Assembly: GCA_009789175.1 (NCBI GenBank)
Contig: CP046866.1
Location: 372,001 to 436,000, forward strand
Direction of reading: 5' to 3'
Source of the DNA: Salinibaculum litoreum
GTDB taxonomy: Archaea; Halobacteriota; Halobacteria; Halobacteriales; Haloarculaceae
DNA: 64,000 nt
Below are positions 35,986 to 56,464 of the stretch, one piece after another; the stretch's first letter is position 1; each line of letters opens with the position of its first letter. The notes under the pieces were generated by a model that made no database searches, was not told where the DNA came from, and saw only the letters and a list, made by a program, of their open reading frames with translations. A program made the position numbers and the translations under genes.

Positions 35986-36046
35986 GGGGAGCCGGAAATC
36001 CCCCGGCGTGGTCAGGGCACGCAGTGCTCGTCCAATCTGGCGCTGA

Positions 36047-38708: not shown

Positions 38709-38715
38709 TAATAGT

Positions 38716-39238: not shown

Positions 39239-39295
39239 GACGCCCTCTGCGGATTGTATCGCTGATTTCAGGGGATTTGGACGCCGTCTGGTGGT

Positions 39296-40111: not shown

Positions 40112-40125
40112 AGCTCGCCGCCTGC
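40096..40125. terminator. Strong stem-loop at the transposase stop codon
   Basis: Arms GCAGGCGGCGAG (40096-40107) and CTCGCCGCCTGC (40114-40125) pair perfectly over 12 bp with a 6-nt loop TTAGAG that contains part of the stop codon. It could stop transcription entering or leaving the IS, or limit read-through translation. No T-tract follows, so a classical terminator is not proven. Confidence 0.45.
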
Positions 40126-40158
40126 TCCCCTTCTCTGGACGTATCGAGGAGAGGCGTC

Positions 40159-40306
40159 GCCATCGTCCACCTCATACTTCGTGCGGTATCTTGTGAAACT
40201 GATGTTTTGGTCACCGCACAAGGCGGCTGAAATTGAATCGTCCGGTCTAAGAATCCGCTGAGAGAGCACCGCTACTGGTGGAAAGCTGAATATCATTATT
40301 CCAATA
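40159..40306. other. Spacer between the IS and the ATPase fragment
   Basis: A minus-strand frame of 71 codons starts inside the ATPase fragment (40323) and runs into the IS end. It has no recognised family and overlaps both neighbours. It may be scrambled remnant sequence from the insertion event. Nothing else is seen here. Confidence 0.3.
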
Positions 40307-41116
40307 CTAGCGCCGTCTTCCATTCAACAGTGCATCTTGTAAAATAGAGACGCTACCGTAACAATTTTGCATAATCATGTATTTGAAATTTTCATCAAAT
40401 TCTATATTCATCAACTCTTCTCCCTCCTCAATCACTTGCTGTAGGTCATCTCTTTTCCATTCGTCAACGTCTACCGACAAGACTCGACCCCTTAGATCTC
40501 CATTGTACAATATCAAGCGGTTCTCCTCAAGCCAGACCCCTACGATAATGAACTTGACATCAGACTTTTCATGGAAGGCTTACAGGGCAATTGAAAAGTC
40601 TTTTTGAACTTCCTGCGGCAAATAATGAAAATCCTCTAGTGTAATGTGCTTATCAAATCCAATCTCAGACAGTGCTCGAATGATATCATTGACGTTCTCA
40701 GGGTCTAGCTCTAAAGTCTCCTCTTCTGTCTCTGTGGTCTCGGTTTCTGAAACCTCACTTCCGATATTTATTACTTTGCTAATCCCTGCTTTTATTTTCT
40801 GTGTTCCGGATACTGTTGTTGTCTCAGTTGCAGTTACTGTAAAGCCAGCCTCCTTCAAAATCGTTGTATGTATGTCGGCAATATCCCACTTGTTGCTACA
40901 CTGAATGACAACTTGGTCCTCTTCGTCTATGTGCTTTTTTCTCAAGCAGGTTTTCCCTTGTTTTGACCCACCAAATATCACCAAGTGCTTATCTCTGTTT
41001 AGATAAGAATTCAGCTTATCATCAACATAACTTCGTTCAACGTAGTTTTCTGGAATGTCGCCAGTTATATCATATACTTCTTCGACTAGTTTGCCTTCAC
41101 GACTCATAGAATCCAT
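40307..41116 (-). pseudogene. N-terminal fragment of an AT-rich P-loop ATPase gene with a nonsense codon
   Basis: The frame starts near 41116 (MDSMSREGKL) or 41107. It holds a Walker A GGSKQGKT (around residue 50) and a Walker B-like ITLEDFHYLP, then an in-frame TAA at 40580-40582 where a Lys codon is expected (reading SIAL-stop-AFHEKSD). It resumes in the same frame with EENRLILYNGDLRGRV and GSVSILQDALLNG and ends at TAG 40307. The part beyond is separated by an IS from a likely C-terminal fragment at 38716-39238. It looks like a decayed STAND/AAA-type ATPase, possibly a defence gene; that role is a guess. Confidence 0.6.
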
Positions 41117-41256
41117 ATACAAGACAAGTTACAAAAACCTAATTGATTTCGGGAAGAGTAACGCGACATCAAATCTTGTCTGTGGGTAATTCATCACCAA
41201 CGATACTTGTCTGAATATCCACTTGAGAACTGAATCTATGTTGGGAGCAATGGTAC

Positions 41257-41385
41257 CTATTCGTCAGCGGATTCTTGAAGCAACTCCTGAATAACGTCGT
41301 CGAAGGTATCGCCTGGCCCCTTTTGCCGGTTTAGCTGCTTCCAGGTCTCCTCGCTCACCTGAATCGTCGTCGTCTCGTCATCCAT
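41257..41385 (-). CDS. Small antitoxin-like ribbon-helix-helix protein
   Basis: The 42-residue protein reads DDETTTIQVSEETWKQLNRQ followed by GPGDTFDDVIQELL. It is a VapB-like (DUF7557-like) ribbon-helix-helix or DNA-binding antitoxin fold. It starts at ATG 41385; the longer frame adds non-family residues. There is no toxin gene beside it. It is divergent from the integrase and may regulate it through the palindrome at 41472. Confidence 0.6.
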   Translation of the reverse strand: MDDETTTIQVSEETWKQLNRQKGPGDTFDDVIQELLQESADE

Positions 41386-41471
41386 ACAACCGGTATGAGT
41401 ACGAGTAGGTATAATCTTGGCTCCTTTATCATTTCTATAATAATACAGAACCATAGTATTATAACACTTCG

Positions 41472-41485
41472 CTATAGTACTATAG
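41472..41485. promoter_or_regulatory. 14-bp palindrome between the RHH gene and integrase
   Basis: CTATAGTACTATAG is a perfect inverted repeat in the divergent spacer, with a related half-site ATAGTATTATA at 41453-41463. It is a plausible operator for the adjacent RHH protein or for excision control. It is also AT-rich enough to overlap promoter elements. Confidence 0.45.
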
Positions 41486-41629
41486 CCGATGGCGTGGCAG
41501 AGAAAACAGAAATTATTGCTGCTAATCCGGGGCCGTATCGTGTATCGGTCGTATATGGGCGCTTCCTCCGAGTGGTAGAATGTCATGATGACCGCCCTCT
41601 TTGAGCGACGGACTACGAGGTGAGCGTCG

Positions 41630-42649
41630 ATGGGTAACGACCTCGAATCGCTGGCCCCGCAGGAAGCAGTCGACCTCTACATGGACCACCGGGAGCCGGA
41701 ACTGAGCGAAAAGACGCTTGAGAACCACCGCTACCGGCTTAAGATGTTCGTCGAGTGGTGCGAGCGTGAGAGCATCTACAACCTGAATGACCTCAGTGGT
41801 CGTGACCTCCATCGGTACCGCGTCTGGCGACACAAGGACATCAACACGGTGACGCTCCGTGGCCAGCTCGCTACGCTGCGCGTGTTCCTTGAGTTCTGCG
41901 CCGACATCGACGGTGTAGAACCTGGACTGCGTGAGAAGGTGAAGCTGCCCAATGTCGAACCGGACGAAGAAGCCCGCGACCGGCTGCTCGACGACGACCG
42001 CGCCGCCAAGCTCCTGCAGTACCTGGAGACATACCGGCGCGCCAGTCGAGAACACGTCATTATCGCCGTGCTGTGGCACACTGGTATCCGGCTCGGTAGC
42101 CTCCGTGCGCTTGACCTGGATGACTACGAGAGTGACGGCGACGAATCCAGCATCTGGATTCGGCACCGACCGGAGAGCGGAACACCGCTGAAGAACGGCA
42201 ACGCCGCTGAACGGCCTATCTCACTGGACGAGAAGTACGCTGACATCCTCGACGACTACATTCGGCTTCACCGCCCGAACGTTGAGGACGACTACGGTCG
42301 CCGGCCACTGCTTGCCAGTGAACAGGGTCGTCTCAGCGACACACAGATTCGCGCCGACGTGTATCAGGTTACCCAGCCCTGCGTGCTCAGTGACTGCCCA
42401 CACGACCGCGACATCGAGTCCTGCGAGTACCGCTCGTATGGTCACTACTCGGAGTGCCCATCGAGTCTGTCGCCACACTCGATACGGCGAGGTTCGCTGA
42501 CCCACCAGCTCCGTGAAGGCGTTCCCGAGGAGATTGTCAGCGGCCGCTGTAACGTATCCCGAGACGTGCTGGACCAGCACTACGACCGGCGAACTGACCG
42601 CGAGAAGATGGAACAACGCCGAGAGTTCATCGAGAAATTAGACCTGTAA
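41630..42649 (+). CDS. Tyrosine integrase of the element (SNJ2-type candidate)
   Basis: The 339-residue protein has an N-terminal SAM-like domain and a C-terminal catalytic domain. Arg lies in WHTGIRLGSLRA (near 152), HxxR in HSIRRGSLTH (near 283) and Tyr in VLDQHYDRRT (near 317), with a Cys-rich insertion (CVLSDCPHDRDIESCEY) typical of haloarchaeal pleolipovirus/plasmid integrases. It lies 71 bases from the tRNA-Ala 3' end and points toward it, as expected for a site-specific integrase using that tRNA as attB. Confidence 0.9.
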   Translation: MGNDLESLAPQEAVDLYMDHREPELSEKTLENHRYRLKMFVEWCERESIYNLNDLSGRDLHRYRVWRHKDINTVTLRGQLATLRVFLEFCADIDGVEPGLREKVKLPNVEPDEEARDRLLDDDRAAKLLQYLETYRRASREHVIIAVLWHTGIRLGSLRALDLDDYESDGDESSIWIRHRPESGTPLKNGNAAERPISLDEKYADILDDYIRLHRPNVEDDYGRRPLLASEQGRLSDTQIRADVYQVTQPCVLSDCPHDRDIESCEYRSYGHYSECPSSLSPHSIRRGSLTHQLREGVPEEIVSGRCNVSRDVLDQHYDRRTDREKMEQRREFIEKLDL

Positions 42650-42720
42650 CGCATGAACGCACATTACGACCTCAGAGTCGAGAAGAACAGTGGAAACGCA
42701 AGCAGAGAGTTTAATTCGTA

Positions 42721-42733
42721 TGGACTCGCCGGG
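42721..42733 (+). repeat. Right attachment site (attR) within the tRNA-Ala 3' end
   Basis: TGGACTCGCCGGG here is the tRNA-Ala 3' end and matches the copy at 35973-35985 exactly over 13 bp, in the same orientation. This is the expected product of integrase-mediated recombination at a tRNA 3' end. Confidence 0.75.
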
Positions 42734-42792
42734 ATTTGAACCCGGGGCCTTCCCCGTGCCAGGGGGATGATCTACCGCTGATCTACGAGCCC
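42721..42792 (-). tRNA. tRNA-Ala (anticodon GGC)
   Basis: Read on the minus strand, the cloverleaf is complete. The acceptor GGGCTCG pairs with CGAGTCC (one G-U pair) with discriminator A. There is a D arm, an anticodon stem TCCCC/GGGGA with loop CTGGCAC (anticodon GGC), and a T arm CCGGG/CCCGG with loop TTCAAAT. CCA is not encoded. Its 3' end is the attachment site of the integrated element, which leaves the gene intact. Confidence 0.97.
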
Positions 42793-42884
42793 GCGACGAC
42801 TGTCGATTGCCAGTGTTCTTTATTAAACCCATCGGAAGCCAACCGCCGTCGATGTGAGGTACCGCATGCCGTGGTGTACCCGAA

Positions 42885-42971
42885 TCGGCCACAAGGACTA
42901 ATATTCTCGAAATACGGCCACAAGCTCTAATACCGTTGAAAATCGGCCACAAACGCTAATACCATCGAGCG
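42885..42971. repeat. Three 29-bp imperfect tandem repeats upstream of pilin cassette A
   Basis: Copies begin at 42885, 42914 and 42943, each exactly 29 bases apart, sharing (T/A)CGGCCACAA then CTAATA. They lie 98-184 bases before the first gene of pilin cassette A and may be regulator-binding sites or TATA-like repeats. The spacing and lack of unique spacers argue against CRISPR. Confidence 0.6.
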
Positions 42972-43068: not shown

Positions 43069-43614
43069 ATGAGGGGACAGACGACACTCGACTTCGCTAT
43101 CGGTATTAGTGTCTTCCTTGCCGTCATCCTGTTCGTGTTTACTTTCGTCCCGGGGCTGCTGGAACCCTTTGCCCTCAGCGGTGAGGCTGACACCGTCCGG
43201 GCCGACCAGCTGGCCGACCGGCTCGCCGAGGGTGAACTCGGCAATCCGCAGGAACCATACGTGCTGGACCGTCACTGTACGGTTTCGTTTTTCGACAACT
43301 CCAGTTCCTCTCCCGACCGCTGTCGATACGAGGGCGATAACTGGCGAGACAGGCTGGATGTTCCTGACACGACGCGGGTCAACGTCACGCTCGAGCGAAA
43401 CGTTACGGTCGGGGCCGCAACCCCGGACACGCTATGCTGGGACGAATCGAACGACGATATCGTCACACAGTCCAACTGTAGCCCCTCTTCCGGTGATACG
43501 CGGCTTACTATCGGAGCGTCTCTGGATGACGCCGGTGACGATTCGACGATAACGGCCAGGCGCGTCGTCACAATGTACGGGGAAGACATGACTCTGAAGG
43601 TGGTCGTATGGTAG
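43069..43614 (+). CDS. Minor pilin-like protein, cassette A gene 1 (DUF7287-like)
   Basis: The 181-residue protein begins MRGQTTLDFAIGISVFLAVI, a short basic leader and hydrophobic segment like an archaeal class III (prepilin) signal, followed by an extracellular domain with paired cysteines. It is the first of five genes (43069-46291) with short overlaps. Its counterpart in cassette B is 53869-54297. Minor pilins of this type are thought to prime or cap type IV pilus assembly; the exact role here is unknown. Confidence 0.72.
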   Translation: MRGQTTLDFAIGISVFLAVILFVFTFVPGLLEPFALSGEADTVRADQLADRLAEGELGNPQEPYVLDRHCTVSFFDNSSSSPDRCRYEGDNWRDRLDVPDTTRVNVTLERNVTVGAATPDTLCWDESNDDIVTQSNCSPSSGDTRLTIGASLDDAGDDSTITARRVVTMYGEDMTLKVVVW

Positions 43615-44210
43615 GACAGCGCGGACAAGCGCACACGCTGGAAGCCGTCGTTGCAGCGCTGATGTTGCTGGTCAGCATCGGCATCGCACTCCAGATGACG
43701 GCCGTGACTCCGCTGTCAGCGAGTACGTCGAGCCAACACTTGGAAAACCAACTCGAAAAGACCGCCAATGGAGTCCTCGCCAGCAATGCCGAAACGGGCG
43801 GACTGAAAGACGCCGTCCTATACTGGAACACGAGTTCGGAGTCGTTTCACAACACCGCGGGTGACCGGGCATACTACACCGAGAAGCCGCCGGAGGACCT
43901 CTCGCTCGGCCGGACACTCAATCGGACGCTCGACGCACGAAACGTCGCGTACAACGTTTACATCTACTACAAGACCGAGGATGGGGACCGGGACCGCCAG
44001 CGGATGATATACCGGGGGGAGCCAAGCGAACACGCTGTGACAGCAACACACACGGTCACCGTAGTTGGTAGCGACCGCCTCCGCAAGGAACACCCCCAAA
44101 ACACTGGTGGACGTGTCGACCAGACGGACTTTTACCTCGATAACAGTACGTCGGGGACGGACGGCCTGTACAACCAGGTACGCGTGGAGGTGGTCGCGTG
44201 GCGAATCTAG
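43608..44210 (+). CDS. Minor pilin-like protein, cassette A gene 2 (DUF7288-like)
   Basis: The 200-residue protein has the segment RGQAHTLEAVVAALMLLVSIGI at the N-terminus and a soluble domain containing YNVYIYYKTEDGD. The cassette B counterpart (53273-53866) has the matching RGQAYTLEGLVAAVL and YNVFLVYQTGET. The start overlaps gene 1 by seven bases. The family match is recalled, not searched. Confidence 0.72.
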   Translation: MVGQRGQAHTLEAVVAALMLLVSIGIALQMTAVTPLSASTSSQHLENQLEKTANGVLASNAETGGLKDAVLYWNTSSESFHNTAGDRAYYTEKPPEDLSLGRTLNRTLDARNVAYNVYIYYKTEDGDRDRQRMIYRGEPSEHAVTATHTVTVVGSDRLRKEHPQNTGGRVDQTDFYLDNSTSGTDGLYNQVRVEVVAWRI

Positions 44211-45097
44211 GCGAGCGGGGACAGATAATCCTCGTCGCGGCGTTTGCCCTGGGGGTCATCTTCATCGCGCTTGCAGTCGTCGTCAACACGGCAATCTTCA
44301 CGGAGAACCTCGCGACCCGGACGGAGGCGACCGACGGGTCCGACGCGCTCGAGTCCAGACACGAGGTCGAACAGAGCGTCGGGGAGATACTGGTGACGGT
44401 CAACGAGGATGCGGACAACCCGTCTGTGGCCTTCAGGGAGAACGTCTCGGAACTGGACAACCAGAGCAGCTACTGGGAAGCGGGCAGCGGTCGCATCGTC
44501 TCGACTGAGGTGGTCGGTACGACGAACGGGCGGCGCTTCTATCAAGACACGGACGGGACCTTCGACGACGGCGGTGACGACTGGATAGTCGCCGAGTCCG
44601 TCGACCAGTCCCGGGCCATTCGGCTGAACATCACCAACGACCTCGCACTATCGGGCTCCGAGGACAGTGCGTTTAGACTCTCCCTGAATGATACCAGCGA
44701 CGACTACTGGAATATGACGGTCTATCGGTCGGGTGGGAATGTCGTCGTCTCCGTCGAGGAGGACGGTGGCAACACGGCGCAGTGCTCTACAACGACGGCC
44801 GAGCCACGCATCGACGTGACTGCGGGGACACTCGGTGGTGAACCGTGTACGGCCCTGCGCATCGACGGTGGGACCGAGATGCAGTATGGGACTGGTCTGG
44901 ACGACCGGTACGACATCGTCTTCTACAATGGAACTCAGATGGAGGGCACGTATGAGGGGGTCACCCAAGGCGGAGTGGTAAGCGTGAGTGCAAACGATGA
45001 GACAGCCCTCTACAGTAGCACGGTCAGGTACGTCTACGAGACGAGCGCGGTCAGATACGAGACGGACATCCGGGTCGCACCGGGGGAGCCAGCATGA
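44198..45097 (+). CDS. Minor pilin-like protein, cassette A gene 3 (DUF7261-like)
   Basis: The 299-residue protein begins at GTG 44198 with ERGQIILVAAFALGVIFIAL, then a large extracellular domain rich in Asn/Thr/Ser. It overlaps the end of gene 2 by 13 bases. Its paralogue in cassette B is 52314-53279, with RAQLLLVGSVLIAIAIVATV. Likely an extracellular pseudopilin. Confidence 0.7.
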   Translation: MANLGERGQIILVAAFALGVIFIALAVVVNTAIFTENLATRTEATDGSDALESRHEVEQSVGEILVTVNEDADNPSVAFRENVSELDNQSSYWEAGSGRIVSTEVVGTTNGRRFYQDTDGTFDDGGDDWIVAESVDQSRAIRLNITNDLALSGSEDSAFRLSLNDTSDDYWNMTVYRSGGNVVVSVEEDGGNTAQCSTTTAEPRIDVTAGTLGGEPCTALRIDGGTEMQYGTGLDDRYDIVFYNGTQMEGTYEGVTQGGVVSVSANDETALYSSTVRYVYETSAVRYETDIRVAPGEPA

Positions 45098-45558
45098 GCG
45101 GACGCGTCGGGCCCTTCCCCGGCCACCGTGGCGTCTCTTCGACGCTGAGTTACGTCCTTTCGCTGGCGATAGCGACGCTGCTCATCACGGGACTCATCAC
45201 AGCGAGTACCGGATTCGTTACAACACAGCGCGAGGTGGTCGTCCGCGAGGAACTGGAGGTCATCGGCCAGCACCTCGCCTCGAACGTCGAGCAAGCCGAC
45301 CGCATGGCCAACGCCAGCGAGGGGTCGGCGACGGTCTACGTCAATCAGACCTTTCCCGACGCTGCCGCACGCTCGCAGTACGACGTGCGACTGAGCGAGT
45401 CTCGGGACCAACTCGTCTTAAACAGTACCTCGCCGGAGCGCACCGTTCGCATCAATATCTCCACGACAGCGGAGCTTCGGGAATCCACTGCAGACGGCGG
45501 GACGATAACCGTCCGGTACGACGATTCGAGCGACGAGCTGGTGATTGGCAATGCGTAA
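45094..45558 (+). CDS. Minor pilin-like protein, cassette A gene 4 (DUF7266-like)
   Basis: The 154-residue protein has HRGVSSTLSYVLSLAIATLL, a prepilin-type segment, and a short beta-rich domain (YDVRLSESRDQLVLNSTS). It overlaps gene 3 by four bases and gene 5 by eight. The cassette B equivalent is 51832-52317, with RGASIAITHALTLAITAIL. Confidence 0.72.
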   Translation: MSGRVGPFPGHRGVSSTLSYVLSLAIATLLITGLITASTGFVTTQREVVVREELEVIGQHLASNVEQADRMANASEGSATVYVNQTFPDAAARSQYDVRLSESRDQLVLNSTSPERTVRINISTTAELRESTADGGTITVRYDDSSDELVIGNA

Positions 45559-46291
45559 CCGGGCCGTCAGCGAAGTGCTGGGCTATGCCCTCGTGTTCAG
45601 TCTGGTCGTCGTCATCGTCGGTATCATTTCTGTCTCGGGGCTGACGGGTTATCAGGATGTCCAGAACTTCGAACGTCAGTCAAACGCCCAGAAAGCCTAC
45701 GATGTGATGCACAACAACATCGAGGACATCTACTACAGGGGGGCACCTAGTCGGGCGACGGAACTCGACCTCGGGGAGACAACGATTACGCTTGCAGAGC
45801 CAGTCACAATCAACGTCACAGCGGGGTCGGGAAGCGAGAGGGTCTCCACGAACGTGACGACCCGTCCAATCGTACAGGACCTGGGTGAGGGCAACAAACT
45901 CGTCTACGAGGCAGGGGCCGTCTTCCAGACGACTCGGGACGGGGGGCTCCTCCGTCGTGAGCCACCGATGACGCTGCGCCCGGACAGCGGTCACGTCATC
46001 GTCCCGAACATCAGCCAGCAAGGGCGGCGCGGCATCGGAAACGGTGTCGTCCGGGTTCGTGCCCGCTCGCTCTCTGACACTATCCGCTACGAAAACCGGT
46101 CGGGCTCCGGTGATGATTATCTCAACATCACCGTCCACTCACCGCGTGCCGGCCTCTGGGCCACGCATCTCGAAGACAGTTCCACGTTCGACAGTTGCAC
46201 AGTCGGCGATTCAGTGGTGACCTGCGAGACTGACGACCTCGACCGACTGTACGTCGTTCGCTCTGACCTCGGCATCTATTTCGACCGCTGA
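45551..46291 (+). CDS. Minor pilin-like protein, cassette A gene 5 (DUF7289-like)
   Basis: The 246-residue protein begins MRNRAVSEVLGYALVFSLVV, followed by an extracellular domain ending with a CETDDLDRLYVVRS strand. ATG 45551 is chosen over a TTG at 45545. Its partner in cassette B is 50984-51841 (RGLSDVIAFVLTFSVIILSV). It is the last gene of cassette A, 200 bases before the giant vWA gene. Confidence 0.72.
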   Translation: MRNRAVSEVLGYALVFSLVVVIVGIISVSGLTGYQDVQNFERQSNAQKAYDVMHNNIEDIYYRGAPSRATELDLGETTITLAEPVTINVTAGSGSERVSTNVTTRPIVQDLGEGNKLVYEAGAVFQTTRDGGLLRREPPMTLRPDSGHVIVPNISQQGRRGIGNGVVRVRARSLSDTIRYENRSGSGDDYLNITVHSPRAGLWATHLEDSSTFDSCTVGDSVVTCETDDLDRLYVVRSDLGIYFDR

Positions 46292-46456
46292 ACCGTCCAT
46301 CTCCGGGTAAATTACTCCCAGACCAACATTTCGAACGTCGCGCACCTCACAGCCGGAGAATACCGTCTATAGACCTTCCTTCGTGGGATATTTGACGTTA
46401 CAGGCGACTAATTGGTCTCAGCACCCTGTTTTTCTTACTGTGGCAGAGCCCGGGAA

Positions 46457-46464
46457 TTTTATAC
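46457..46464 (+). promoter_or_regulatory. TATA-like promoter of the giant vWA gene
   Basis: TTTTATAC lies 28-35 bases before ATG 46492, with good spacing for archaeal initiation. A separate promoter means the gene can be expressed without cassette A. Confidence 0.5.
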
Positions 46465-46491
46465 AGTAGTAGATATATTATTGGGAACAGT

Positions 46492-49400
46492 ATGGTATGG
46501 GAGTGGGACCTATCAGATGAACGGGGTGTATCTGATATCGTCGGGGTGGCGATTCTCATCTCGTTGAGTATCGTCGGTTCGCTGGCTATCGTGGCTATTG
46601 GCGGCATCGCGTTGAACACCCTGACAGAACAGGCACAGAACGATTTGGCCGACGATTCGATTCGCAACGTCGACGCCCGGCTCTCCGCGCTAGCGGACAG
46701 TTCCGTGGACGCGACTACCGAGTTCACTATCCCCGAGGGAACTGGCGACCAAATCGAGGCCAACGCGAGCGCCGGTCGCGTCTACGTCAGCGCAACGACC
46801 AACGCGACGTATGCGAATCAGACCGTCGAGTATGCTGATACGGGCGATTCCTCCTGTACGGTCCAACAGGGGCTGGGGACTATCGTTCACGAGCGTGACA
46901 ACGGCAACGCGATCGTCTATCAGGGCGGTGGACTCTGGAAACAGACACCTGCGGGCACGCAAGTCGAGTCCGAACCCAAGTTCGACTACGATGGGAGCGC
47001 CATCCGGTTCGGGTTCATCAACATCACCGGACTCCGGAGTGTCTCGGAAGGCGAGACGCTGACCGCGGAGAAACTGGCACGCGAGTCCGAGACGGCCACA
47101 GCCGAGATGACGCGTGAACTCGAGGATTGCTGGCAGATGGACGGTGCAAGCGGGACCGTCCCTGTCAGTATCAACGTGACCATCAGCAGCGAGTACTACG
47201 AGGGGTGGGCACGCTACGCGAAACAGGACATGTCCGCACAGCCAGCGGATATCACCTGGGACAACGCCAGCAACAACGTCACGCTACACTTCGGGAACGT
47301 CGGAGGCAAAAGCGGTGCGTTCTCCGAGGCCGACGAGTTCCCTGGGCCGGTCATCTACTCCGGACTTTCCGACTATGCACAGTACAACGACAAACTGAGT
47401 CCGGAAAGCGCCGGCGCGGCCGCATTCAGTGCAGACCTGAGCGAAATCAACGGCAACAAGGTCTCCGTTGCCTACTACGATGCCGATGCGAGCGCGTGGG
47501 CATACAACAAAGGCTCGGAGACAGACACCACCACCTGGGAGTACAACGGTAAATCCGGGGGCCCAGACCCGAGTGACAATCCGCTCATTGCCAACCCCAG
47601 TGGCACAGTCTACAATTTCGACGAGGGCGTTCCCATCTGTGTCATCAAGGGCAAGGGCTTCCCCGGTCAACTGAACAGCGGGAACTGCAAGGCCGATATG
47701 GTCGGCACCAACGGCAGTGCCGTTTCCGGTTCCAACCAGTCCATCTACGAGATTGCAAGCGTTACCGTTGTGAACACCTCCAATACGGTCTCGGAAGGCG
47801 AACAACTGAGCGCGGAGGTGACCATCGAAAACACCGGAACGAAGGATGGTGAAAAGTACGTCGCACTGTTCGATGATAACAAGAACCTTGTCGACTACGA
47901 GAAACTCAACATCGATGGTGGCGAGTCTCCACCGGCCTCGAAGACGGCCACGCTGACCTGGCAGACGGGGACCGGTGATAGCCCGGCCGGGACCGACGAG
48001 CGGACGCTCATCCTGGCGACGGCAGACGACAACGTGACCAGAGATGTCTACGTCCAGGAAGCCGACGTGGACACGCCGGAGTTCGATGTGGATATCGACC
48101 AGAGCAGTAGCTCCGATACCGTCGAGGTCGACGAGACGGTTCAGGTGACAGCGACTATCGACAACGTCGGTGACGGCGACGGAAGCCAGTACGTCACGCT
48201 GACCGACCACAACGGCAACCTCGTGGACGTGACTCGGGTGACGAACCTCGGCGACAGCGACCCTGCACAGACGGTCACACTATCGTACACGCCTGTCGCC
48301 GCCGGGAGCGGTGACGTAACGGTCTCGACCGAAGACCACAGTGACACCCACAGCGTCACAGTCACCGACTCCTCCTCATCTGGGGGCGTTCGCTACATCG
48401 GCCCGGCAAGCAACAGTGATGCGCTCAACTACCTCCTCCAGCAGGGCTACAGTGGCCCGGGCGGCAACGACACCGCCGGTAACAGCGGGAATCTGAAGGA
48501 TACCGGCTATATCGACAACGGATACGTCATCGAGCCAAAAGACGACTCCACCTACGACGTGTATCTGGCTGATACGGACGCCGGCACGTGGGTCGAAGTC
48601 GTGCAGGGAACAGATAGTCACCGGTACGTCAAGGGGTCAAACGTCGCCGGCGGTGACAGTGGAACGATGTACGATACGCTCGCGGCCGACTCGAACGCTA
48701 TCGTCTGTATTGCCGATACGGGAGCGGACATCAACGGGACGGACCCCTCGACCAGTGACTGCGGCGCACTTTACAACAAAAGCGGCGGCCTGGAGTATAA
48801 AAAAGGCGAGAACGTCCTCGAAGTTGAGGGCACCCAGGGGAACCTCTCGGTGCTGACCACTCAGATCGGTGAGCGCGTCGAGGAACGCGAGGATGTCCGC
48901 CAGCCACTCGACGTGATGTTCGTCCTCGACGAGTCCGGGTCGATGGGTGACTACGATTTCACCGACACCGCATACCCAGGGAACACATACAGCCCACCGG
49001 AGAATTACTTCTACGTCCTCGAAACAGGCGAAGTGTACGATTCCGAGGACAGCTTTAGCGTCAGCACCGAGACTGAAGTTGATGTTTACACCGGCTCGGA
49101 CCCGCTCGGGTTCCGCATCGACGCGACGAAATCCTTCGTCGGGAGCCTCAACGACACCAAAGACGAGGCCGGTGCAGTGCAGTTCGATTACGATGCTGAC
49201 GTGAAACAACCACTCACGGACGACCTCGACGATGTCAACTCCTCCGTCGCACAGGATGTCGGCGGCAGCACGTACCTAGGGAATGCAATCGACGAGGGCC
49301 GGACACAACTCACTGCAGCCTCGAACCCGGACCGGCAGGTGATGGTCGTACTGAGCGACGGTAAGGCCGACGACGACCCCGTCGCTGCCGCCAACCGGGC

Positions 49401-50841
49401 TGCCGACGAGAACATCACTATCTACACCGTGGGTCTCGGCGACGACGTCAACGAGGCGGAACTCAAGCAGGCGGCAAACGTCACTGGCGGGAAATACTAC
49501 GCTGTCGACCAGGCCGATCAACTGAAGCAGATCTTCGAGCAGATTGCCACGGACGCGAAACAGGAGTCTATCATCCAGCGCAGTCGGACGGAAGTGGCCG
49601 CGGTCAACGACGCCGGCAAGGAGTGGTCTGTCTCGCTGGACGGTGACTCGAATCTGAACGACCCGACGCAGTACAACACCAGCAGTTCCACTGCCCTCGA
49701 AGAACAACTCTCCAGTGGCCTGAACAACTCGGACCTGTCCTTCGAGGTGACGGTCTATGGCTGTAACAACTACTCGGCAATCGACGGCGTCACGTCGACG
49801 GTCGGCGGCGAGACGTACACGCACGCGACGTGTACCGAGTACGACACCACCGACTCGACGACCATCAACAACAGCAACGTCCACGACCACGTCATAATCA
49901 CTGCCAACAACAGCAACTACCTGTCGAACATCTCCGCGACCGGCGACTGGCAGCCCGACCCCGAGGACGTGGCGTCGGTGGACAAAGACGACCTCGGTGA
50001 GGGTGAGGCACTCATCGGCCTGGAGGTCGCCCACGAGAACCAGACCGGCTACGTCCTGATGCACTTCGAGGTGCCGACCAACGAGACGGTCCGTGACAAC
50101 TGGGATGGGGATGTCGGCGACGGTGATACCCCTGACGAGACCGAGTTTACGGTCAGTACCGATAGCGTCTCTCCTGACCCCGTCACGCGTGGTGATACCG
50201 TCACTGTCGATGCCACCGTGACCAACACCGGTGATACGGGAACTGAGGCCATCGTGCTCAAAAACGACGACGGCATCGTCGTCGACAGCACGACTCGGAA
50301 CCTGAGCAACGGCGAGACGGACCTCAGTGTGACCCTGACGTGGGATACCACTGGTGCCCGGACGGGTGACAATAGCCTCACTGTTGCAGTCGAGAACGAC
50401 AGTGCCGCCGAGACCGTCACTGTCGAAGCTGACGACCCGTTCTTCGAAGTCGATAGTGTCTCCGGTGAGACCGTCACAGAAGGCGAGACGATGGAGGTCT
50501 CGGGCACAATAACGAACACCGGCCAGGACGACGGCCGGGCACAGGTCGTCCTGGAAGTGAAAGACGGCGGCGAGTGGTACACGGTCGACGCGATGGAGAC
50601 ATCCGCCACGTTGACCGCGGGCGACCCCGGACAGTCGGAGACGGTCACCCTGTCCTGGGAGACTACCATCGGCGACGCAGGCAATCCTCGTCAGGTACGG
50701 CTTCAGACCGCACACGACGCCGATACCGCCTCCCCGACGGTTGACCCCGCTGACACCGGCGGTTCCAACCTCGGGACGAGCGTCGGTGACCCGAGTTCCG
50801 AACCGATAAACATCGATGTCTCCCGGATAGAAATCGAATAG
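46492..50841 (+). CDS. Giant pilin-anchored surface adhesin with CARDB and vWA domains
   Basis: The 1449-residue protein starts with a prepilin-type segment (ERGVSDIVGVAILISLSIVG) and then a pilin-like domain (about 45-330). Two CARDB-like beta domains follow (about 420-520 and 520-640), then a von Willebrand A domain with MIDAS DESGSMG (near 812) and DGKADDDP (about 805-1015). Two more CARDB-like domains (about 1215-1310 and 1310-1410) and a short basic end complete it. It is probably exported and anchored like a pilin, with the vWA domain binding a partner through a metal ion. It lies between two pilin cassettes that converge on it. Confidence 0.8.
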   Translation: MVWEWDLSDERGVSDIVGVAILISLSIVGSLAIVAIGGIALNTLTEQAQNDLADDSIRNVDARLSALADSSVDATTEFTIPEGTGDQIEANASAGRVYVSATTNATYANQTVEYADTGDSSCTVQQGLGTIVHERDNGNAIVYQGGGLWKQTPAGTQVESEPKFDYDGSAIRFGFINITGLRSVSEGETLTAEKLARESETATAEMTRELEDCWQMDGASGTVPVSINVTISSEYYEGWARYAKQDMSAQPADITWDNASNNVTLHFGNVGGKSGAFSEADEFPGPVIYSGLSDYAQYNDKLSPESAGAAAFSADLSEINGNKVSVAYYDADASAWAYNKGSETDTTTWEYNGKSGGPDPSDNPLIANPSGTVYNFDEGVPICVIKGKGFPGQLNSGNCKADMVGTNGSAVSGSNQSIYEIASVTVVNTSNTVSEGEQLSAEVTIENTGTKDGEKYVALFDDNKNLVDYEKLNIDGGESPPASKTATLTWQTGTGDSPAGTDERTLILATADDNVTRDVYVQEADVDTPEFDVDIDQSSSSDTVEVDETVQVTATIDNVGDGDGSQYVTLTDHNGNLVDVTRVTNLGDSDPAQTVTLSYTPVAAGSGDVTVSTEDHSDTHSVTVTDSSSSGGVRYIGPASNSDALNYLLQQGYSGPGGNDTAGNSGNLKDTGYIDNGYVIEPKDDSTYDVYLADTDAGTWVEVVQGTDSHRYVKGSNVAGGDSGTMYDTLAADSNAIVCIADTGADINGTDPSTSDCGALYNKSGGLEYKKGENVLEVEGTQGNLSVLTTQIGERVEEREDVRQPLDVMFVLDESGSMGDYDFTDTAYPGNTYSPPENYFYVLETGEVYDSEDSFSVSTETEVDVYTGSDPLGFRIDATKSFVGSLNDTKDEAGAVQFDYDADVKQPLTDDLDDVNSSVAQDVGGSTYLGNAIDEGRTQLTAASNPDRQVMVVLSDGKADDDPVAAANRAADENITIYTVGLGDDVNEAELKQAANVTGGKYYAVDQADQLKQIFEQIATDAKQESIIQRSRTEVAAVNDAGKEWSVSLDGDSNLNDPTQYNTSSSTALEEQLSSGLNNSDLSFEVTVYGCNNYSAIDGVTSTVGGETYTHATCTEYDTTDSTTINNSNVHDHVIITANNSNYLSNISATGDWQPDPEDVASVDKDDLGEGEALIGLEVAHENQTGYVLMHFEVPTNETVRDNWDGDVGDGDTPDETEFTVSTDSVSPDPVTRGDTVTVDATVTNTGDTGTEAIVLKNDDGIVVDSTTRNLSNGETDLSVTLTWDTTGARTGDNSLTVAVENDSAAETVTVEADDPFFEVDSVSGETVTEGETMEVSGTITNTGQDDGRAQVVLEVKDGGEWYTVDAMETSATLTAGDPGQSETVTLSWETTIGDAGNPRQVRLQTAHDADTASPTVDPADTGGSNLGTSVGDPSSEPINIDVSRIEIE

Positions 50842-50983
50842 GAGATAGCTTCTTCGTCGCTCGAAGGAGTGGTTCTGGTCGGCTACGACTGCTCGGGCTT
50901 TTCATCGACCCCTTTCGTTGTCGATTCTACGGCTCGGCTTGTAGACCCATCCCCATCCTGCAACGGACCGCGGTCAGCGCCGG
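50842..50983. other. Convergent spacer between the giant gene and cassette B
   Basis: About 140 bases, GC-rich, with no repeat or gene I can support. Convergent transcripts meet here; no strong terminator hairpin was seen. Confidence 0.3.
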
Positions 50984-51841
50984 CTACTCGTCGACAGTGA
51001 CGTCGATGGTGACCAGCCGGACGACGACCGTCTCGAGGTTGCCGCTTCCGCACTTGTAGCCGTAGTCGTCGTCGGCAGCCGACTCCCAGCCGGTGTCGCC
51101 GTCGTCGAGGTAGGCCCTCCAGCCGTCGGTGTTGGTAGTCTCAGAGAGATCCAGAAAGACCGTCTTCCCGGTCCCGTCGCTTCTGTTGACGTAGATGACC
51201 TTGGATTCGGTTTTGTTGAGCGTCCCAGACAGCTGGACGGACTGCTCGCTGTCCTCGACCGGCGCATCCGCTCCGGGGGCGTCCTCGGGGCCGACACTGA
51301 ATCCGGGTGACCCCGACCCGATGCTGAGAGAGCCGTTCAGAGCGACGAGTGTCACAACCGCTATCCCGGTATCGGGAGCACACCGCATCGTCGGCCGGTA
51401 CCGCATGCGTGACTCTTCGTCTGCCGCGATGTCCTGACGGAACACGGCTCCGTTCTCGTAGCTGATGTTGACCGCACCGAAGGATTTCTCCAGTCGATGC
51501 TGGAGAGTGTTCACCGTGACTGACCGGGTCCAGTTGCCGCTGCTGTTTGTCGTCTCGTTTATCCGAAGTCGCAGGCTGGCGTCGGCCAGGTGGACGTGTC
51601 CGTCTTGCAGTGCGATTTCACCGGCACGCATGCGGTCGCCCTGCTGACTCACGTCGTCGAGGTTCTTCGCGAAGGAGACCATGCTGCGTTCGGCGCTGTT
51701 GACCTGCTCGCGGTCGCGCACCTCGGTGAGCTGTGAGACACCCAGTACCGACACTGCCGACACTGAGAGGATGATGACCGAGAAGGTCAACACGAAGGCG
51801 ATGACATCGGAGAGTCCGCGCTCCTCGAACATCACGGACAC
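50984..51841 (-). CDS. Minor pilin-like protein, cassette B gene 5 (DUF7289-like)
   Basis: The 285-residue protein starts MSVMFEERGLSDVIAFVLTFSV, a prepilin-type segment, followed by an Asn/Ser/Thr-rich extracellular domain ending DDDYGYKCGSGNLETVV. It is longer than its cassette A partner (246 residues). It is the last gene of the pilB operon and overlaps gene 4 by ten bases. Confidence 0.72.
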   Translation of the reverse strand: MSVMFEERGLSDVIAFVLTFSVIILSVSAVSVLGVSQLTEVRDREQVNSAERSMVSFAKNLDDVSQQGDRMRAGEIALQDGHVHLADASLRLRINETTNSSGNWTRSVTVNTLQHRLEKSFGAVNISYENGAVFRQDIAADEESRMRYRPTMRCAPDTGIAVVTLVALNGSLSIGSGSPGFSVGPEDAPGADAPVEDSEQSVQLSGTLNKTESKVIYVNRSDGTGKTVFLDLSETTNTDGWRAYLDDGDTGWESAADDDYGYKCGSGNLETVVVRLVTIDVTVDE

Positions 51842-52317
51842 CCCCGAAGCGCGATGCGTTGGTTGCCGCCCCCGTCAGCACACAGCCTCACAGTCGGGTT
51901 CTCCCCACGCGTGCGTGAGTTGACCATTGGTGTGTCAGTCCGGACCGGAACTGTGACCGACAGTCCCAGCTCCGAGGCGTTGAGATACAGCGTGGCGTTT
52001 GTCCTGTCGCTGCTGTTGGGGACCAGAGCCATAGAGTAGGGCTCGCCCGCAATCTGCTCGGGGTAGGACGCCTCGAACGTGGCGTTGACCTGCTCGCCGG
52101 TCTCGTTGACCCGGTCTGCCCTGTCGATGACCGAGGCCACGTCCCCACCCACGTCTTTGAGCTGTGACTGGGCGACTTTGTCCTGCTGGTTCGTCAGGTA
52201 GTTCCCTGTCGTCACGAGTAGTGTCGTGATGAGAATTGCCGTGATGGCGAGTGTGAGCGCGTGCGTGATTGCTATCGATGCGCCGCGGTCGTCTGTCTGG
52301 AGGGCGTTGCGTCTCAT
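51832..52317 (-). CDS. Minor pilin-like protein, cassette B gene 4 (DUF7266-like)
   Basis: The 161-residue protein has DRGASIAITHALTLAITAIL and an extracellular domain ending with a Cys pair (LCADGGGNQRIALRGCP). It overlaps gene 3 by four bases. It matches the cassette A protein at 45094-45558 in segment pattern and length. Confidence 0.72.
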   Translation of the reverse strand: MRRNALQTDDRGASIAITHALTLAITAILITTLLVTTGNYLTNQQDKVAQSQLKDVGGDVASVIDRADRVNETGEQVNATFEASYPEQIAGEPYSMALVPNSSDRTNATLYLNASELGLSVTVPVRTDTPMVNSRTRGENPTVRLCADGGGNQRIALRGCP

Positions 52318-53279
52318 GGTTCGGTCCTGTTGTACAGCCGGAACGTCGATTCGTAGGTTACGTCAGCGCTCACGTAGGTGACGGCGAAGGCGGGGTTGAC
52401 GATGGTGTCTGATGAGTCCTCCCACTTGGGGGCCTCACTGAAGCTCGGAGTGCCACCGGTCCCAGTAATCGTGTAATTCCCCGAGACAGTATCCCCGCGG
52501 ATGAAATGAACCGCGCGCGAGTTCACGTCGGGTGCCACCCGAAAGTCCCCACAGCGATGTGCGAGGCCGCTCTCGGTGTGTAACTCCACGTGCCCTCGAT
52601 TCTTCGTGATTTCGGTGCGGATTTCGTACGAGTCGAGACTCCCGCTCACCCCGCAGATAGCCCGCTTCGGCCCGGTAGACCGATTGACCGTCACGCGGGT
52701 GTCGCTGACGTTGAGATACCACGCTGCTGTCGAAGCCCCCGTTCCGTTTATCTTCAGTGAAAACGGCGTACCACCCGGGTCGTACATCGTCATCCGCATC
52801 CGGACGATATCCGGGCCACCGTCGGCGACGGTCCAGTTGCTCTCGGCCGGACTCGCCGCGCTGTGATAGGTCGTATTGTCGTTCTGGTAGACCGCCCACC
52901 CCTTCTCGGACTGTTCGGGGAGATACTCCACGTCGAGTGTCCCGCTCCGTCTCTCGTTGCGTACATCCGCGTAGGCCGGACCGAGTGTGGCACTCACGTT
53001 CTCCTGGAAGGTGTCGTTTATATCGACGGCCGGGTGTGGCGAGTCTGTGATAAACGGCGTCCGCATCCCGCCTTTTCTGTCGACTTCCAGAAACAGTCCA
53101 TCGAGAGCGACCCGGAGTTCGTCATGCATCCGGTCGATTTGCTCCGTGTTCTGTTCGATATCGTCGGTCTGGAGGTTCGCGGGCGTGTAGATGGAGTTCA
53201 GCAGAACGACTGTCGCCACGATGGCGATGGCTATGAGGACGCTCCCGACGAGCAACAACTGGGCGCGCTCTCTCACCAT
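52314..53279 (-). CDS. Minor pilin-like protein, cassette B gene 3 (DUF7261-like)
   Basis: The 321-residue protein has MVRERAQLLLVGSVLIAIAI at the N-terminus and a large beta-rich extracellular domain with two Cys. It overlaps both neighbours. It pairs with the cassette A gene at 44198-45097. Confidence 0.72.
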   Translation of the reverse strand: MVRERAQLLLVGSVLIAIAIVATVVLLNSIYTPANLQTDDIEQNTEQIDRMHDELRVALDGLFLEVDRKGGMRTPFITDSPHPAVDINDTFQENVSATLGPAYADVRNERRSGTLDVEYLPEQSEKGWAVYQNDNTTYHSAASPAESNWTVADGGPDIVRMRMTMYDPGGTPFSLKINGTGASTAAWYLNVSDTRVTVNRSTGPKRAICGVSGSLDSYEIRTEITKNRGHVELHTESGLAHRCGDFRVAPDVNSRAVHFIRGDTVSGNYTITGTGGTPSFSEAPKWEDSSDTIVNPAFAVTYVSADVTYESTFRLYNRTEP

Positions 53280-53866
53280 ACTTCCACCCGCACCTCCACC
53301 ACGTTGTACAGTTGTGAGTCGGGATGTTCGTCCGCGAGGTAGACGGCCCCCGTATCGTCACGCTCGCTCAGGTTCTCACCAGCCGGTCGACACCCGTCAC
53401 TCGTCGTCTCGTGGGCTGGCGTCCCGTCGTACAGAGCCACCGTCCGGGAGACCGTGACGACGCCGTTCCGCGGCTCCTGCTCGGTTTCCGGATACACCAG
53501 TTTCTCCGTCGTCGTCTCCCCGGTCTGATAGACGAGGAAGACGTTGTAGCTGTAGCCGCGGTTCCCAAACGTCTCGTTCAACATCGGCCCGAGTGCTGTG
53601 GCACTGTCCCCGCCCGGGGCGTAGGCAGCCGTCGCCGGGGCTGCTCCGTCCAGACAGGTCACTGCCCGTTTGAGTGTGCCGTTTTCTGCGGCCACAGCGA
53701 GGGTGTCCTCTCCCTGAGTGCGTAGCGAATCGAGCATGTCGTCGTCGGGGCCGCTTGTCCAGGGGGCCACGTCGACCGCCTGCATCCCGAGGATGACCGA
53801 CGACGCGATGAGCACCGCCGCGACGAGTCCTTCCAGCGTGTACGCCTGGCCTCGGTCGTCGGACAT
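53273..53866 (-). CDS. Minor pilin-like protein, cassette B gene 2 (DUF7288-like)
   Basis: The 197-residue protein starts MSDDRGQAYTLEGLVAAVLI and has an extracellular domain with YNVFLVYQTGETTTEKLVY. The start at 53866 is chosen over the longer frame, which reads into gene 1. It matches the cassette A gene at 43608-44210. Confidence 0.72.
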   Translation of the reverse strand: MSDDRGQAYTLEGLVAAVLIASSVILGMQAVDVAPWTSGPDDDMLDSLRTQGEDTLAVAAENGTLKRAVTCLDGAAPATAAYAPGGDSATALGPMLNETFGNRGYSYNVFLVYQTGETTTEKLVYPETEQEPRNGVVTVSRTVALYDGTPAHETTSDGCRPAGENLSERDDTGAVYLADEHPDSQLYNVVEVRVEVW

Positions 53867-53868
53867 GA

Positions 53869-54297
53869 TTACCACACCCTCACCACCAGCCGGCACACCG
53901 GTGTACAGTCTCCGGAGGTGTCGTTCGCGAGCGATATCACGCGGACCGACGTGGCTGCTGGCTGTCTGTTGTCGGCGTAGTTACTGCCCGAGCCATCGAG
54001 TATCTCCGTCCCGTCCTGTACTGTCACGTTTACTGTCCCCGTCTCCCCTGGCGGATTGACTGTCTGGATGTTCTGTCGCAGTTGTTCCCCATCGACAGTA
54101 TTCGAACTCCCCTGTACAGCACTTGCCGTCAGGAGTTCGTCGGCGATTCTGTCGGCAGTTGCCTCATTATCGGCATCGACTGGGTCCTGGAAGGGTTCGT
54201 AGATGCCCGGGACGAACGCGAACACGCCTGTCAGCGTCAGGAGGACGAGTGTCATCCCCACGACGTAGTCGAACTCCGTCTGCGCGCGGCTAGTCAT
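53869..54297 (-). CDS. Minor pilin-like protein, cassette B gene 1 (DUF7287-like)
   Basis: The 142-residue protein begins MTSRAQTEFDYVVGMTLVLL, a prepilin-type segment, and carries a Cys pair (SGDCTPVCRL) at the end. It follows the PilC gene by ten bases, so it is translated in the same operon. It pairs with the cassette A gene at 43069-43614. Confidence 0.74.
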   Translation of the reverse strand: MTSRAQTEFDYVVGMTLVLLTLTGVFAFVPGIYEPFQDPVDADNEATADRIADELLTASAVQGSSNTVDGEQLRQNIQTVNPPGETGTVNVTVQDGTEILDGSGSNYADNRQPAATSVRVISLANDTSGDCTPVCRLVVRVW

Positions 54298-54307: not shown

Positions 54308-56464
54308 TCAGTCGGCTCCTCCGTCGGAAGCCGACACCCCGCACCCATCTGTCTGCCTGTCCCCAGTCCAGTCCCACACTGACCTGCCAACTGACCCGAC
54401 GGCCAGCAACAGGAGCGCCTCCTCGCCGCCACCGCCGGCGGTCATCTGCTGGACGCCAATCCAGACGACCAGCGCCAGCGTCGCCAGCCCAACAGCGTAT
54501 TTCACCCCGGAGATGAGCTCCACGTTCCGGATGTAACCGGCGATAAACGAGGAGATGATAGCCTGCAGTGTCACGGCGTGGAAAAACAGCATCGACATCC
54601 GCTCTTCGGAGAGCGACCCGCCGCTGCCTCCTCCCGGTCCCTGTCCGCCGCTGGTACTCAACTCCAGCCCGCCGATGACGTCGATAAACTGCACGCGAAG
54701 CAACGCCATCACGCCCAGCAGCGTGAGGTAGGTCATGATGATGATGACCGTCTGCATCCGGGTCCGGGACTTTCGCTCGCGGTCGATGTCGTCCTGGTTC
54801 TCGGAGGCCTGTGCGGCCGTCGAGAGCACGTCCTGAATCTGGCTGGAGGTCTCCTGGGCCTCGCTGATGAGCTTGACCGTCCGCGCCAGCCGCGGAATGT
54901 GGTATTTGTTGTTGAACTCCCGGAGAGCGTCTTTCAGGTTGGTCCCGTAGTTGACCTTCGCGTGCATCGTCTCGAACTCGTCGGCCAGTTTCCCCGAGGA
55001 CGTCTCGGAGACGACTTTCACCGACTCCAGAAGCGTCATCCCCGTATCGTTGGCGCTGGCCAGTTTGCGCAGGTTCTCCGAGAGGTTGCCAAGCACCCCC
55101 CGCCGCGAGCGGACGTTCCACTCGTAGAATATCCCCAGCGGCAGGAGGTTCATATACAGCGGTACGTAGACCCACATCACCGTCCCGTAGACGACGTTGT
55201 TCTCCATCGCCTCGATAGAGAGGGGCAGATTGTCGGTCAGAAACGCCCCGAGCAACACGAGTACCGTCAGCGGCACTGTCACGAGCAACACCATCGTCGG
55301 GTGGTCCCGGAAGAAGCGATGCGGTGCCCGCAGAATCGCCATCAGTTCGTGGGTCCCCTCCCGGCGTTTGATGCGGTCGAAGACGCTCCGGTCGCCGGTG
55401 TATTGCTCGACAAGACCGGGATTGAACACGCCGATGCCCTCGTCGACCCGGAACTCCTCCTCTTTGCTGTCCGGGCGGAGATATCCATCACCGATTTCGT
55501 CCTGCGTGACCGTCGAGACGAGCACCAGGAAGCCGACCCCGATAAGCGGAATCAGCCCGTACACCGTCCCCATCAGGAGCATCTCCTGGTTACCACCCTG
55601 CATCAGGTCCATGATGACGAGGATGATGATGAGAAGCAGGGGAAACAGCGACAGCGTCATGTACATCTCGCCGAACAGTTCCAGGGTGTCAAGCAGCTTT
55701 TTTTGTTCCTGTTTGGCCGTCCGCATGTGCTTGTCTTTCTGGTCTTCGAGGAAGTCCGTCATGTCGCCCCCGGAGTTGACGATAGAGAGCATGTCCGTCA
55801 GAAACTGCGAGAGTTCGTCGCTGGGGGTTTCCAGTGCCTGATTCCGGATAGCAGTCCGGTAGTCCGTATCGAAATACTCCGTCTCCAAGACGATAGACTG
55901 GAACTCCTTGGCGACTTCCCCGTATGTGTCGTCGGCTTTGGCCATCGCTTGCAGAATCTCTAGCTGGTTCATCCCACCCACAGACAGCGCGTACATGAAC
56001 GAAATCGAGTCAGCGAGCAAGACGTTAATCTCGCGTTCGCGGGCGCTGGACCGGAAATAGGGTATCGAGACGAGCGATCCAAACCCAATGGCAAAGCCGA
56101 TCGAGCCGAATACCAGGCCCGAAAAGAAGACGATAGCCGGCGTCTTCAGCGCCGTAATGTAATCGGGCAGATTGAACGTCACCAGTCCTTCCGGGACGCC
56201 GAAAAACTGGACGAACAGCCAGCCGACGAACATCCCGAGAAACCACAGCGCGAGCCCGGCGATGACGCCCACCGCGAGCGCACGCGAGAGGAACATCTCG
56301 ACGTTGTCGGCCATCCTGGCCTCCGCGAGCTTGTCCTCGATACCTTTGACGAAGTCACCGTCCTCGTTGAACAGCCACTCGTAGAGCGGGTAGAACGCGT
56401 CACCGAGGGCTGACTCGCCGGCATTCCCCAGCTGTTGCTTGTCACCTCGCGTATCGAGGCTCAT
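54308..56464 (-). CDS. pilC: Type IV pilus membrane platform protein (PilC/TadC-type)
   Basis: The 718-residue protein has two repeated T2SSF/ArlJ-like halves, each with a soluble helical part and membrane helices. Examples are IGFAIGFGSLVSIPYFRSSA then ALSVGGMNQLEILQAMAKADD, and LASANDTGMTLLESVKVVSE. The C-terminal membrane group is followed by a low-complexity tail. It anchors the assembly ATPase and passes prepilins into the fibre. The ATG overlaps the end of the ATPase gene by four bases, so the two are co-translated. Confidence 0.87.
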   Translation of the reverse strand: MSLDTRGDKQQLGNAGESALGDAFYPLYEWLFNEDGDFVKGIEDKLAEARMADNVEMFLSRALAVGVIAGLALWFLGMFVGWLFVQFFGVPEGLVTFNLPDYITALKTPAIVFFSGLVFGSIGFAIGFGSLVSIPYFRSSAREREINVLLADSISFMYALSVGGMNQLEILQAMAKADDTYGEVAKEFQSIVLETEYFDTDYRTAIRNQALETPSDELSQFLTDMLSIVNSGGDMTDFLEDQKDKHMRTAKQEQKKLLDTLELFGEMYMTLSLFPLLLIIILVIMDLMQGGNQEMLLMGTVYGLIPLIGVGFLVLVSTVTQDEIGDGYLRPDSKEEEFRVDEGIGVFNPGLVEQYTGDRSVFDRIKRREGTHELMAILRAPHRFFRDHPTMVLLVTVPLTVLVLLGAFLTDNLPLSIEAMENNVVYGTVMWVYVPLYMNLLPLGIFYEWNVRSRRGVLGNLSENLRKLASANDTGMTLLESVKVVSETSSGKLADEFETMHAKVNYGTNLKDALREFNNKYHIPRLARTVKLISEAQETSSQIQDVLSTAAQASENQDDIDRERKSRTRMQTVIIIMTYLTLLGVMALLRVQFIDVIGGLELSTSGGQGPGGGSGGSLSEERMSMLFFHAVTLQAIISSFIAGYIRNVELISGVKYAVGLATLALVVWIGVQQMTAGGGGEEALLLLAVGSVGRSVWDWTGDRQTDGCGVSASDGGAD

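Follow-up and report, generated by a model that had tools for sequence, protein, structure and literature searches.

Gene content of the pilus locus

The pilus locus analysed here lies within a stretch of 64,000 nucleotides from the archaeon Salinibaculum litoreum (assembly GCA_009789175.1, contig CP046866.1, positions 372,001 to 436,000 of the forward strand). This whole stretch is called the window in the following, and coordinates refer to its first nucleotide. The locus comprises the genes of a pilus assembly machine, two cassettes of five pilin-like genes each, named A and B, and three genes for long modular pilins. The gene of the assembly ATPase, pilB (56461–58974, minus strand; T2SSE, Pfam E 4e-32), and that of the membrane platform protein, pilC (54308–56464, minus strand; T2SSF, Pfam E 1e-28), overlap by 4 bases. 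PilB is of the subclade 4C type, a label borrowed from published papers by gene neighbourhood, and the genome contains a single such copy. Cassette B (50984–54297) continues the series pilB–pilC–B1 to B5 on the minus strand, and cassette A (43069–46291) faces it from the plus strand. The first-pass annotation of the sequence had described this facing orientation, the joining of B alone to pilC and pilB and the start of B1 at position 54297, all of which proved correct.

According to Pfam the two cassettes agree in the five pilin-like families that they encode and in the order of these, namely DUF7287, DUF7288, DUF7261, DUF7266, and DUF7289. DUF7287 is represented by A1 (43069–43614) and B1 (53869–54297; E 2e-43 and 1e-27, respectively), DUF7288 by A2 (43608–44210) and B2 (53273–53866; E 4e-60 and 1e-46), DUF7266 by A4 (45094–45558) and B4 (51832–52317; E 2e-25 and 2e-20), and DUF7289 by A5 (45545–46291) and B5 (50984–51841; E 8e-54 and 2e-33). 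The third genes, A3 (44198–45097) and B3 (52314–53279), match DUF7261 slightly below the Pfam cut-off (E 1e-5 and 7e-5) and each other in the pairwise comparison. Genes in the same position are mutual best matches with 24–34% identity; the local scores of pairs 1 to 5 are 107, 176, 83, 140, and 181, and all off-diagonal scores among the ten proteins are 60 or less. Families and scores agree with the initial description of an identical gene order in both cassettes. It had further been stated that the N-terminal segments match whereas the extracellular parts have diverged. The N-terminal match is present, but the contrast is slight: the first 45 residues are 40, 36, 26, 32, and 27% identical in pairs 1 to 5 (26–40%), the remainder 30, 33, 24, 29, and 28% (24–33%).

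The genes of cassette A overlap by a few bases and those of B are separated by small overlaps or gaps; the small overlaps within each cassette give both an operon-like appearance. The five reading frames of cassette A are full-length and intact. At E ≤ 0.001 the genome contains exactly two DUF7288 genes, A2 and B2.

Between the cassettes lies a giant gene (46492–50841, plus strand) whose product of 1449 residues combines a DUF7289 part, CARDB repeats and a vWA domain, as read from Pfam and the translation. Since residues 11–259 match DUF7289, the fifth pilin family of the cassettes (E 5.5e-13), the vWA gene appears to code for a long pilin and not for a separate kind of protein. It starts with a class III-type sequence (DERG|VSD) followed by a hydrophobic run. 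The vWA domain is recognized by Pfam (VWA, E 6e-23) and by a sequence match to the PDB entry 4rck (E 9e-11), and the translation contains DESGS and SDG, which we take to be the vWA metal-site motif. For the first 290 residues AlphaFold2 predicted one 56-residue helix and a beta domain, with a mean predicted local distance difference test score (pLDDT) of 82.5.

Two further long pilins are encoded in tandem on the plus strand, P1 (31956–33803, 615 residues) and its relative P2 (33956–35809, 617 residues). Both frames are intact and both proteins contain DUF7289 and DUF7305. In the AlphaFold2 model of P2 (mean pLDDT 84.7) a long N-terminal helix, whose start has a pLDDT below 50, is followed by a beta domain. 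The DUF7305-containing part, residues 255–590, is predicted to form a beta-solenoid resembling ice-binding DUF3494 proteins, the solved structures of which were matched with Z 16–17. For residues 256–594, that is for the C-terminal domain only, Thermus ComZ was matched with Z 15.4 (251 residues, root mean square deviation 3.6), and the next row after ComZ has a Z of 8.3. Since Z is equally high for the ice-binding solenoids, the likeness of P2 and ComZ is read as a shared fold only. Foldseek returned no match at E < 0.001 for the P2 model or for the N-terminal model of the giant.

Class III signal sequences have a basic residue followed by glycine or alanine and then a hydrophobic helix. As read from the translations, the ten cassette proteins, the giant, P1, and P2 all fit this rule; a search of the genome with the profile PF07963 found nothing. 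Prepilin peptidase gave one match in the genome, and this enzyme could process all of these pilins.

Cassettes, long pilins and machine in related genomes

Of 146 genomes drawn from across the order, 117 contain DUF7288; more than one copy occurs in 11 members of the window's family and in two others. Within a sample of 146 genomes of the family DUF7288 is present in 131, and a PilB of the window type (E ≤ 1e-200) is present in 131 as well. The gene maps rest on a basic caller of open frames and on models built up from the window proteins, and some genes are merged or missed in them. At least one cassette could be classified in 86 genomes of the family, 42 with A only, 24 with both types and 20 with B only, where the loci were picked by hand and a genome with A only or B only may carry the other type beyond the fetched stretch. 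Genomes and loci are cited below by our own G and L numbers (G000 is S. litoreum itself).

Altogether 134 cassettes were found, of which 133 entered the tree; one with two genes was omitted. The tree consists of two deep clades. Cassette A of the window groups as sister (support 1.0) with the cassette adjoining pilC in the congeneric genome G270, and cassette B belongs to the opposite clade; for cassettes of other families the label A or B rests on midpoint rooting. The trees of the five single genes repeat the split; the rows out of place number 0, 2, 0, 0, and 1 and belong without exception to other families, so that the five genes move together as one unit. A recent duplication of one cassette was also considered and is ruled out by the cassette tree together with the low identity of A and B.

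The long DUF7289 proteins follow the same division. All 38 that are encoded beside a B cassette fall into one clade, and 88 of the 89 beside an A cassette fall outside it, the sole exception being in G025, a member of another family. The giant of the window groups with the B partners, P1 and P2 with the A partners. Among the long pilins sampled by Pfam, five of five A partners contain DUF7305 or DUF7308 and five of five B partners contain vWA or CARDB. Since giants go with B and solenoid proteins with A, the giant of the window is the partner of B and is probably not shared, contrary to the first-pass annotation, which had considered it possible that both sets use the adhesin. In other A partners DUF7308 takes the place of DUF7305.

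Cassette and long-pilin distances are closely correlated (Mantel r 0.92, 69 loci), and the cassette type changes only twice on the long-pilin tree of 127 tips. For pilBC and the adjacent cassette the correlation is lower (Mantel r 0.35, 79 loci). The pilBC tree tracks the genera. On it the adjacent cassette switches type 10 times (FastTree) or 9 times (IQ-TREE), and at least 8 times with weak branches collapsed. Shuffled labels require 19–33 changes (mean 26.5), so that the adjacent type is not randomly distributed on the machine tree. The tie between machine and set is nevertheless far looser than that between set and long pilin.

The gene maps agree with this picture. At nine loci (G103, G208, G146, G157, G170, G199, G201, G209, and G210) pilB, pilC, and B point in one direction and are followed by the giant and tRNA-Ala in the opposite direction, A in the direction of pilB and P in the opposite one; G146 has an integrated element and G209 an additional tRNA inside this arrangement. 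Together with the window, G147 (giant reversed), and G169 and G075 (other orders), 13 pilB loci have both types in the fetched stretch. At 15 loci the genes after pilC are tRNA-Ala, an A cassette and P, and the stretch contains neither B nor a giant (G270, G161, G159, G154, G165, G166, G198, G220–G223, G225, G226 and, with an element before the tRNA, G164 and G224). Hence in G270, the PilB of which is 86% identical to that of the window, A and not B is next to pilC. In the sister pair G165/G169, with flanks of 95, 92, and 84% identity, G169 has an additional 9.1 kb that comprise B and the giant and are inserted between the tRNA and A.

A single PilB of the window type is present in each of the 24 genomes in which both cassette types were seen. 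As the same pilBC lineage carries B or A depending on the species, the proposal of alternative sets for one machine, made already in the first-pass annotation, is supported by the comparison. It had been reasoned there that cassettes joined to separate pilBC copies would speak against this proposal. This arrangement, two cassettes each with its own pilBC, is present in G076, a member of another family. Some genomes of the window's family have extra pilBC copies, though not in the A/B pair, and two PilBs of the window type occur for example in G154, G202, G250, and G270.

Several loci deserve separate mention. On contig 3 of G270 a second, more distant pilBC (L186; PilB 56% identity) has its own pilin cassette. 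In S. litoreum two more T2SSE genes (G000:C1, 175556–176770, plus strand, and 186774–187961, minus strand) lie about 11 kb apart on opposite strands, and in the former one stop was read within the match. G200 has two A-type cassettes despite a map resembling that of A plus B. In G020 (L060/L061), G091 (L071/L072), and G131 (L042/L043) B and pilBC are located about 150–170 kb from A, and the giant is beside A, a layout as after a large rearrangement, judging by the maps.

The tRNA-Ala gene, an integrated element and inversions

A tRNA search identified a tRNA-Ala gene (GGC; 42721–42792, minus strand) divergent from A1, and in many relatives A-type cassettes likewise have a tRNA-Ala gene at their 5' end. 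Adjoining the tRNA gene of the window is an integrative element of 6.8 kb (35973–42733) bounded by a 13-bp direct repeat (35973–35985 and 42721–42733). By itself this repeat is short (E 0.05 in the window), but its distal copy falls in the interval that separates P2 from the Rep gene, and the repeat is present again in relatives. The element contains a Rep-like gene (36960–38708), an IS5-family transposase (39296–40111) and a tyrosine recombinase (41630–42649), close relatives of which are found near cassettes in many genomes.

In 12 of 18 composite loci the 3' end of the tRNA (13–23 bases) is repeated at the far side of the element, and this repeat explains the linkage of recombinase and cassette. 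The composites without it are G270, G206, G103, G208, G148, and G147, of which only G206 has a recombinase relative; this count covers the genomes with tRNA-Ala (GGC) in their stretch and thus omits G075, G098, G119, G271, and G137a. From its sequence context the recombinase is best read as an integrase docking at tRNA-Ala. Related elements at the same tRNA in many relatives mark the pilus locus as an integration hot spot.

When the window is aligned with G270, the tRNA and cassette A match in the opposite direction and the regions on either side in the same direction. Among the pilB-anchored maps the window is alone in having A and the tRNA inverted. The giant is oriented differently in G146 and G147, two species of one genus, and its reversal is thus, by comparison of these sequences, a change that occurs over evolutionary time. 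The initial suggestion had been that the giant gene could be inverted between the cassettes; in the window it is A and its tRNA that are inverted relative to relatives. Rapid switching is not supported, since in the window and 15 other loci the giant is not flanked by inverted repeats that clearly exceed chance; a 13-base inverted match in L161 (shuffled maximum 12) and an 11-base match in L136 (shuffled maximum 10) were counted as chance. Inversion driven by the recombinase was dropped as an explanation after the tRNA-Ala gene and the repeated tRNA 3' end had accounted for the linkage.

About 100 bases 5' of A1, at 42883–42968, a 29-base unit (GGCCACAA..CTAATA) is present in three tandem copies. 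It was considered as a conserved control site and rejected, for no array was found before other A cassettes and single matches occur only in L136 and L141.

A proposed model of two tip modules on a single machine

The reading that we favour as the probable one, on the strength of these comparisons, is that one PilB–PilC machine is served by two interchangeable tip modules acting as alternative sets. Each module would consist of the five minor-pilin-like proteins and their own long modular pilin bearing exposed domains, with the vWA/CARDB giant in module B and the solenoid-tipped P1 and P2 in module A. The role of the five small pilins would be to initiate the filament or to cap it and to bring the long partner to its tip, and PilB–PilC would assemble whichever set is expressed. 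B, being part of the pilB operon, would be the default set. As A lies behind a divergent tRNA gene it would need a promoter of its own, which points to an independently controlled alternative. We infer that in each cell one machine is used for both sets, that the sets are expressed alternatively, and that the long partners are positioned at the tip and function in adhesion. In relatives each set goes together with its own large, probably adhesive partner and can take the place of the other, which suggests that pilus tips are exchanged as whole modules.

A different explanation is that there are two pili, B using the adjacent PilB–PilC and A relying for assembly in trans on some other machine of the cell, perhaps one resembling PilB3. 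Seven T2SSE genes of the genome exceed the cut-off, and A could accordingly use another PilB–PilC; moreover, A is directly behind pilC in just one of the 24 genomes with both sets (G271, with B elsewhere) and not in the other 23. These observations weigh against a single machine with alternative sets, as do several others. In G003 and G272, and likewise within the stretches fetched for G233 and G267, no cassette adjoins the machine, and a change of the adjacent set can be a loss of B as well as a gain, to which parsimony is blind. The B-linked giant of G246 also matches the DUF7305 model, and the N-terminal model of the window's giant, compared with solved structures, gave nothing above Z 4.1 and no pilin. 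On the other side, A follows the same pilBC lineage without B at the 15 loci named above, including the congeneric G270, and we regard two separate pili as rather unlikely.

It could also be argued that B and the giant, once acquired, superseded an ancestral cassette, of which A would be the redundant remnant without a distinct role. The A type is the pilBC-joined form in other genera of the family, Haloferax loci carry a single canonical cassette, and in the window A has been parted from its usual long pilins by the inversion and the integrated element. Yet the frames of A, P1, and P2 are all intact and A is kept beside B in 24 genomes, so that this explanation seems improbable to us. Still much less probable is phase variation, in which the neighbouring tyrosine recombinase would invert the giant or cassette A and thereby switch the sets. 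The recombinase relatives near many cassettes and the inversions of the giant and of A with the tRNA would fit such a switch. What was found, however, is a recombinase that belongs to a tRNA-docked element, with the tRNA 3' end repeated in most composites, five of the six repeat-less composites lacking a recombinase, and no inverted repeats around the giant that clearly stand out from chance in 16 loci.

If one machine indeed serves alternative tip modules, a wider picture is conceivable, which we put forward tentatively and with less conviction than the reading itself. Haloarchaea would hold two tip kits and mount a vWA/CARDB or a beta-solenoid tip via one machine, the choice being made by expression. 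The kits of five pilins and tip protein would evolve and spread as units, docking at tRNA-Ala, and surface specificity would change by a swap of kits with the machine unaltered. To our knowledge the role of archaeal minor pilins is poorly known. The coupling predicts that the five pilins exist to load one particular tip protein, and natural swaps in close relatives (G000/G270 and G165/G169) make this prediction directly testable. It also names two kinds of likely tip proteins, the pilin parts of which are in Pfam merely families of unknown function.

In haloarchaeal loci of subclade 4C PilB–PilC is followed by several pilin genes (Makarova et al. 2016, PMC4858521; PMC6491452; PMC4292770); the pilB1-C1 operon of H. 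volcanii is the 4C-type locus for comparison (PMC6491452), and pil-2 of H. salinarum is a co-transcribed seven-gene unit (PMC4292770). The window conforms to this layout with adjacent pilB and pilC and pilins downstream, and the Haloferax loci L265 and L266 contain pilB, pilC, the same five families and a convergent long DUF7289 gene. What sets the window apart from the 4C loci is that a single locus houses two complete sets of different clades, with a separate long pilin for either. Use of several pilin sets by PilB–PilC pairs has published support (PMC4858521, PMC6491452). The available text of the three papers describes neither a coupling of set and long pilin nor a tRNA-anchored A set nor repeated exchange. 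Modular exchange itself is already published, and new is the sharper, testable rule linking set and partner. In the literature on minor pilins of haloarchaea, on adhesins at pilus tips and on modular pilins, no description of such coupled kits was recognized as far as titles and abstract openings tell, with subscription literature thinly covered, and a literature search for the five DUF names found no naming paper.

Systems of other organisms offer partial parallels. PilB of Streptococcus sanguinis is a modular pilin with a vWA domain, modelled at the tip and with a direct role in adhesion (PMC8179133). The giant, likened to it by description, also appears as a pilin stalk with a grafted vWA domain and metal-site motif; unlike this bacterial protein of another system it is 1449 residues long, its stalk is of the DUF7289 family and it contains CARDB repeats, and its place at the tip is putative. 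ComZ of Thermus thermophilus (6qvi) is a large pilin with a solenoid-like domain (PMC6561018), the fold of which is shared by the C-terminal part of P2 according to the predicted model. In type IVa pili PilY1 and the minor pilins, that is a set of minor pilins and a large protein, form a complex (PMC7541494). The scheme proposed here likewise combines a minor-pilin set with a large partner; by analogy with the pilin of S. sanguinis, the long pilin belonging to each set would be brought to the tip by the five proteins of that set. A general Pfam scan gave no PilY1-type match for the giant; no search aimed at PilY1 was made. In G025, the member of another family mentioned above, the DUF7261 gene of a cassette (L049:10340) reads as 1382 residues, which indicates that the giant can also be another member of the cassette.

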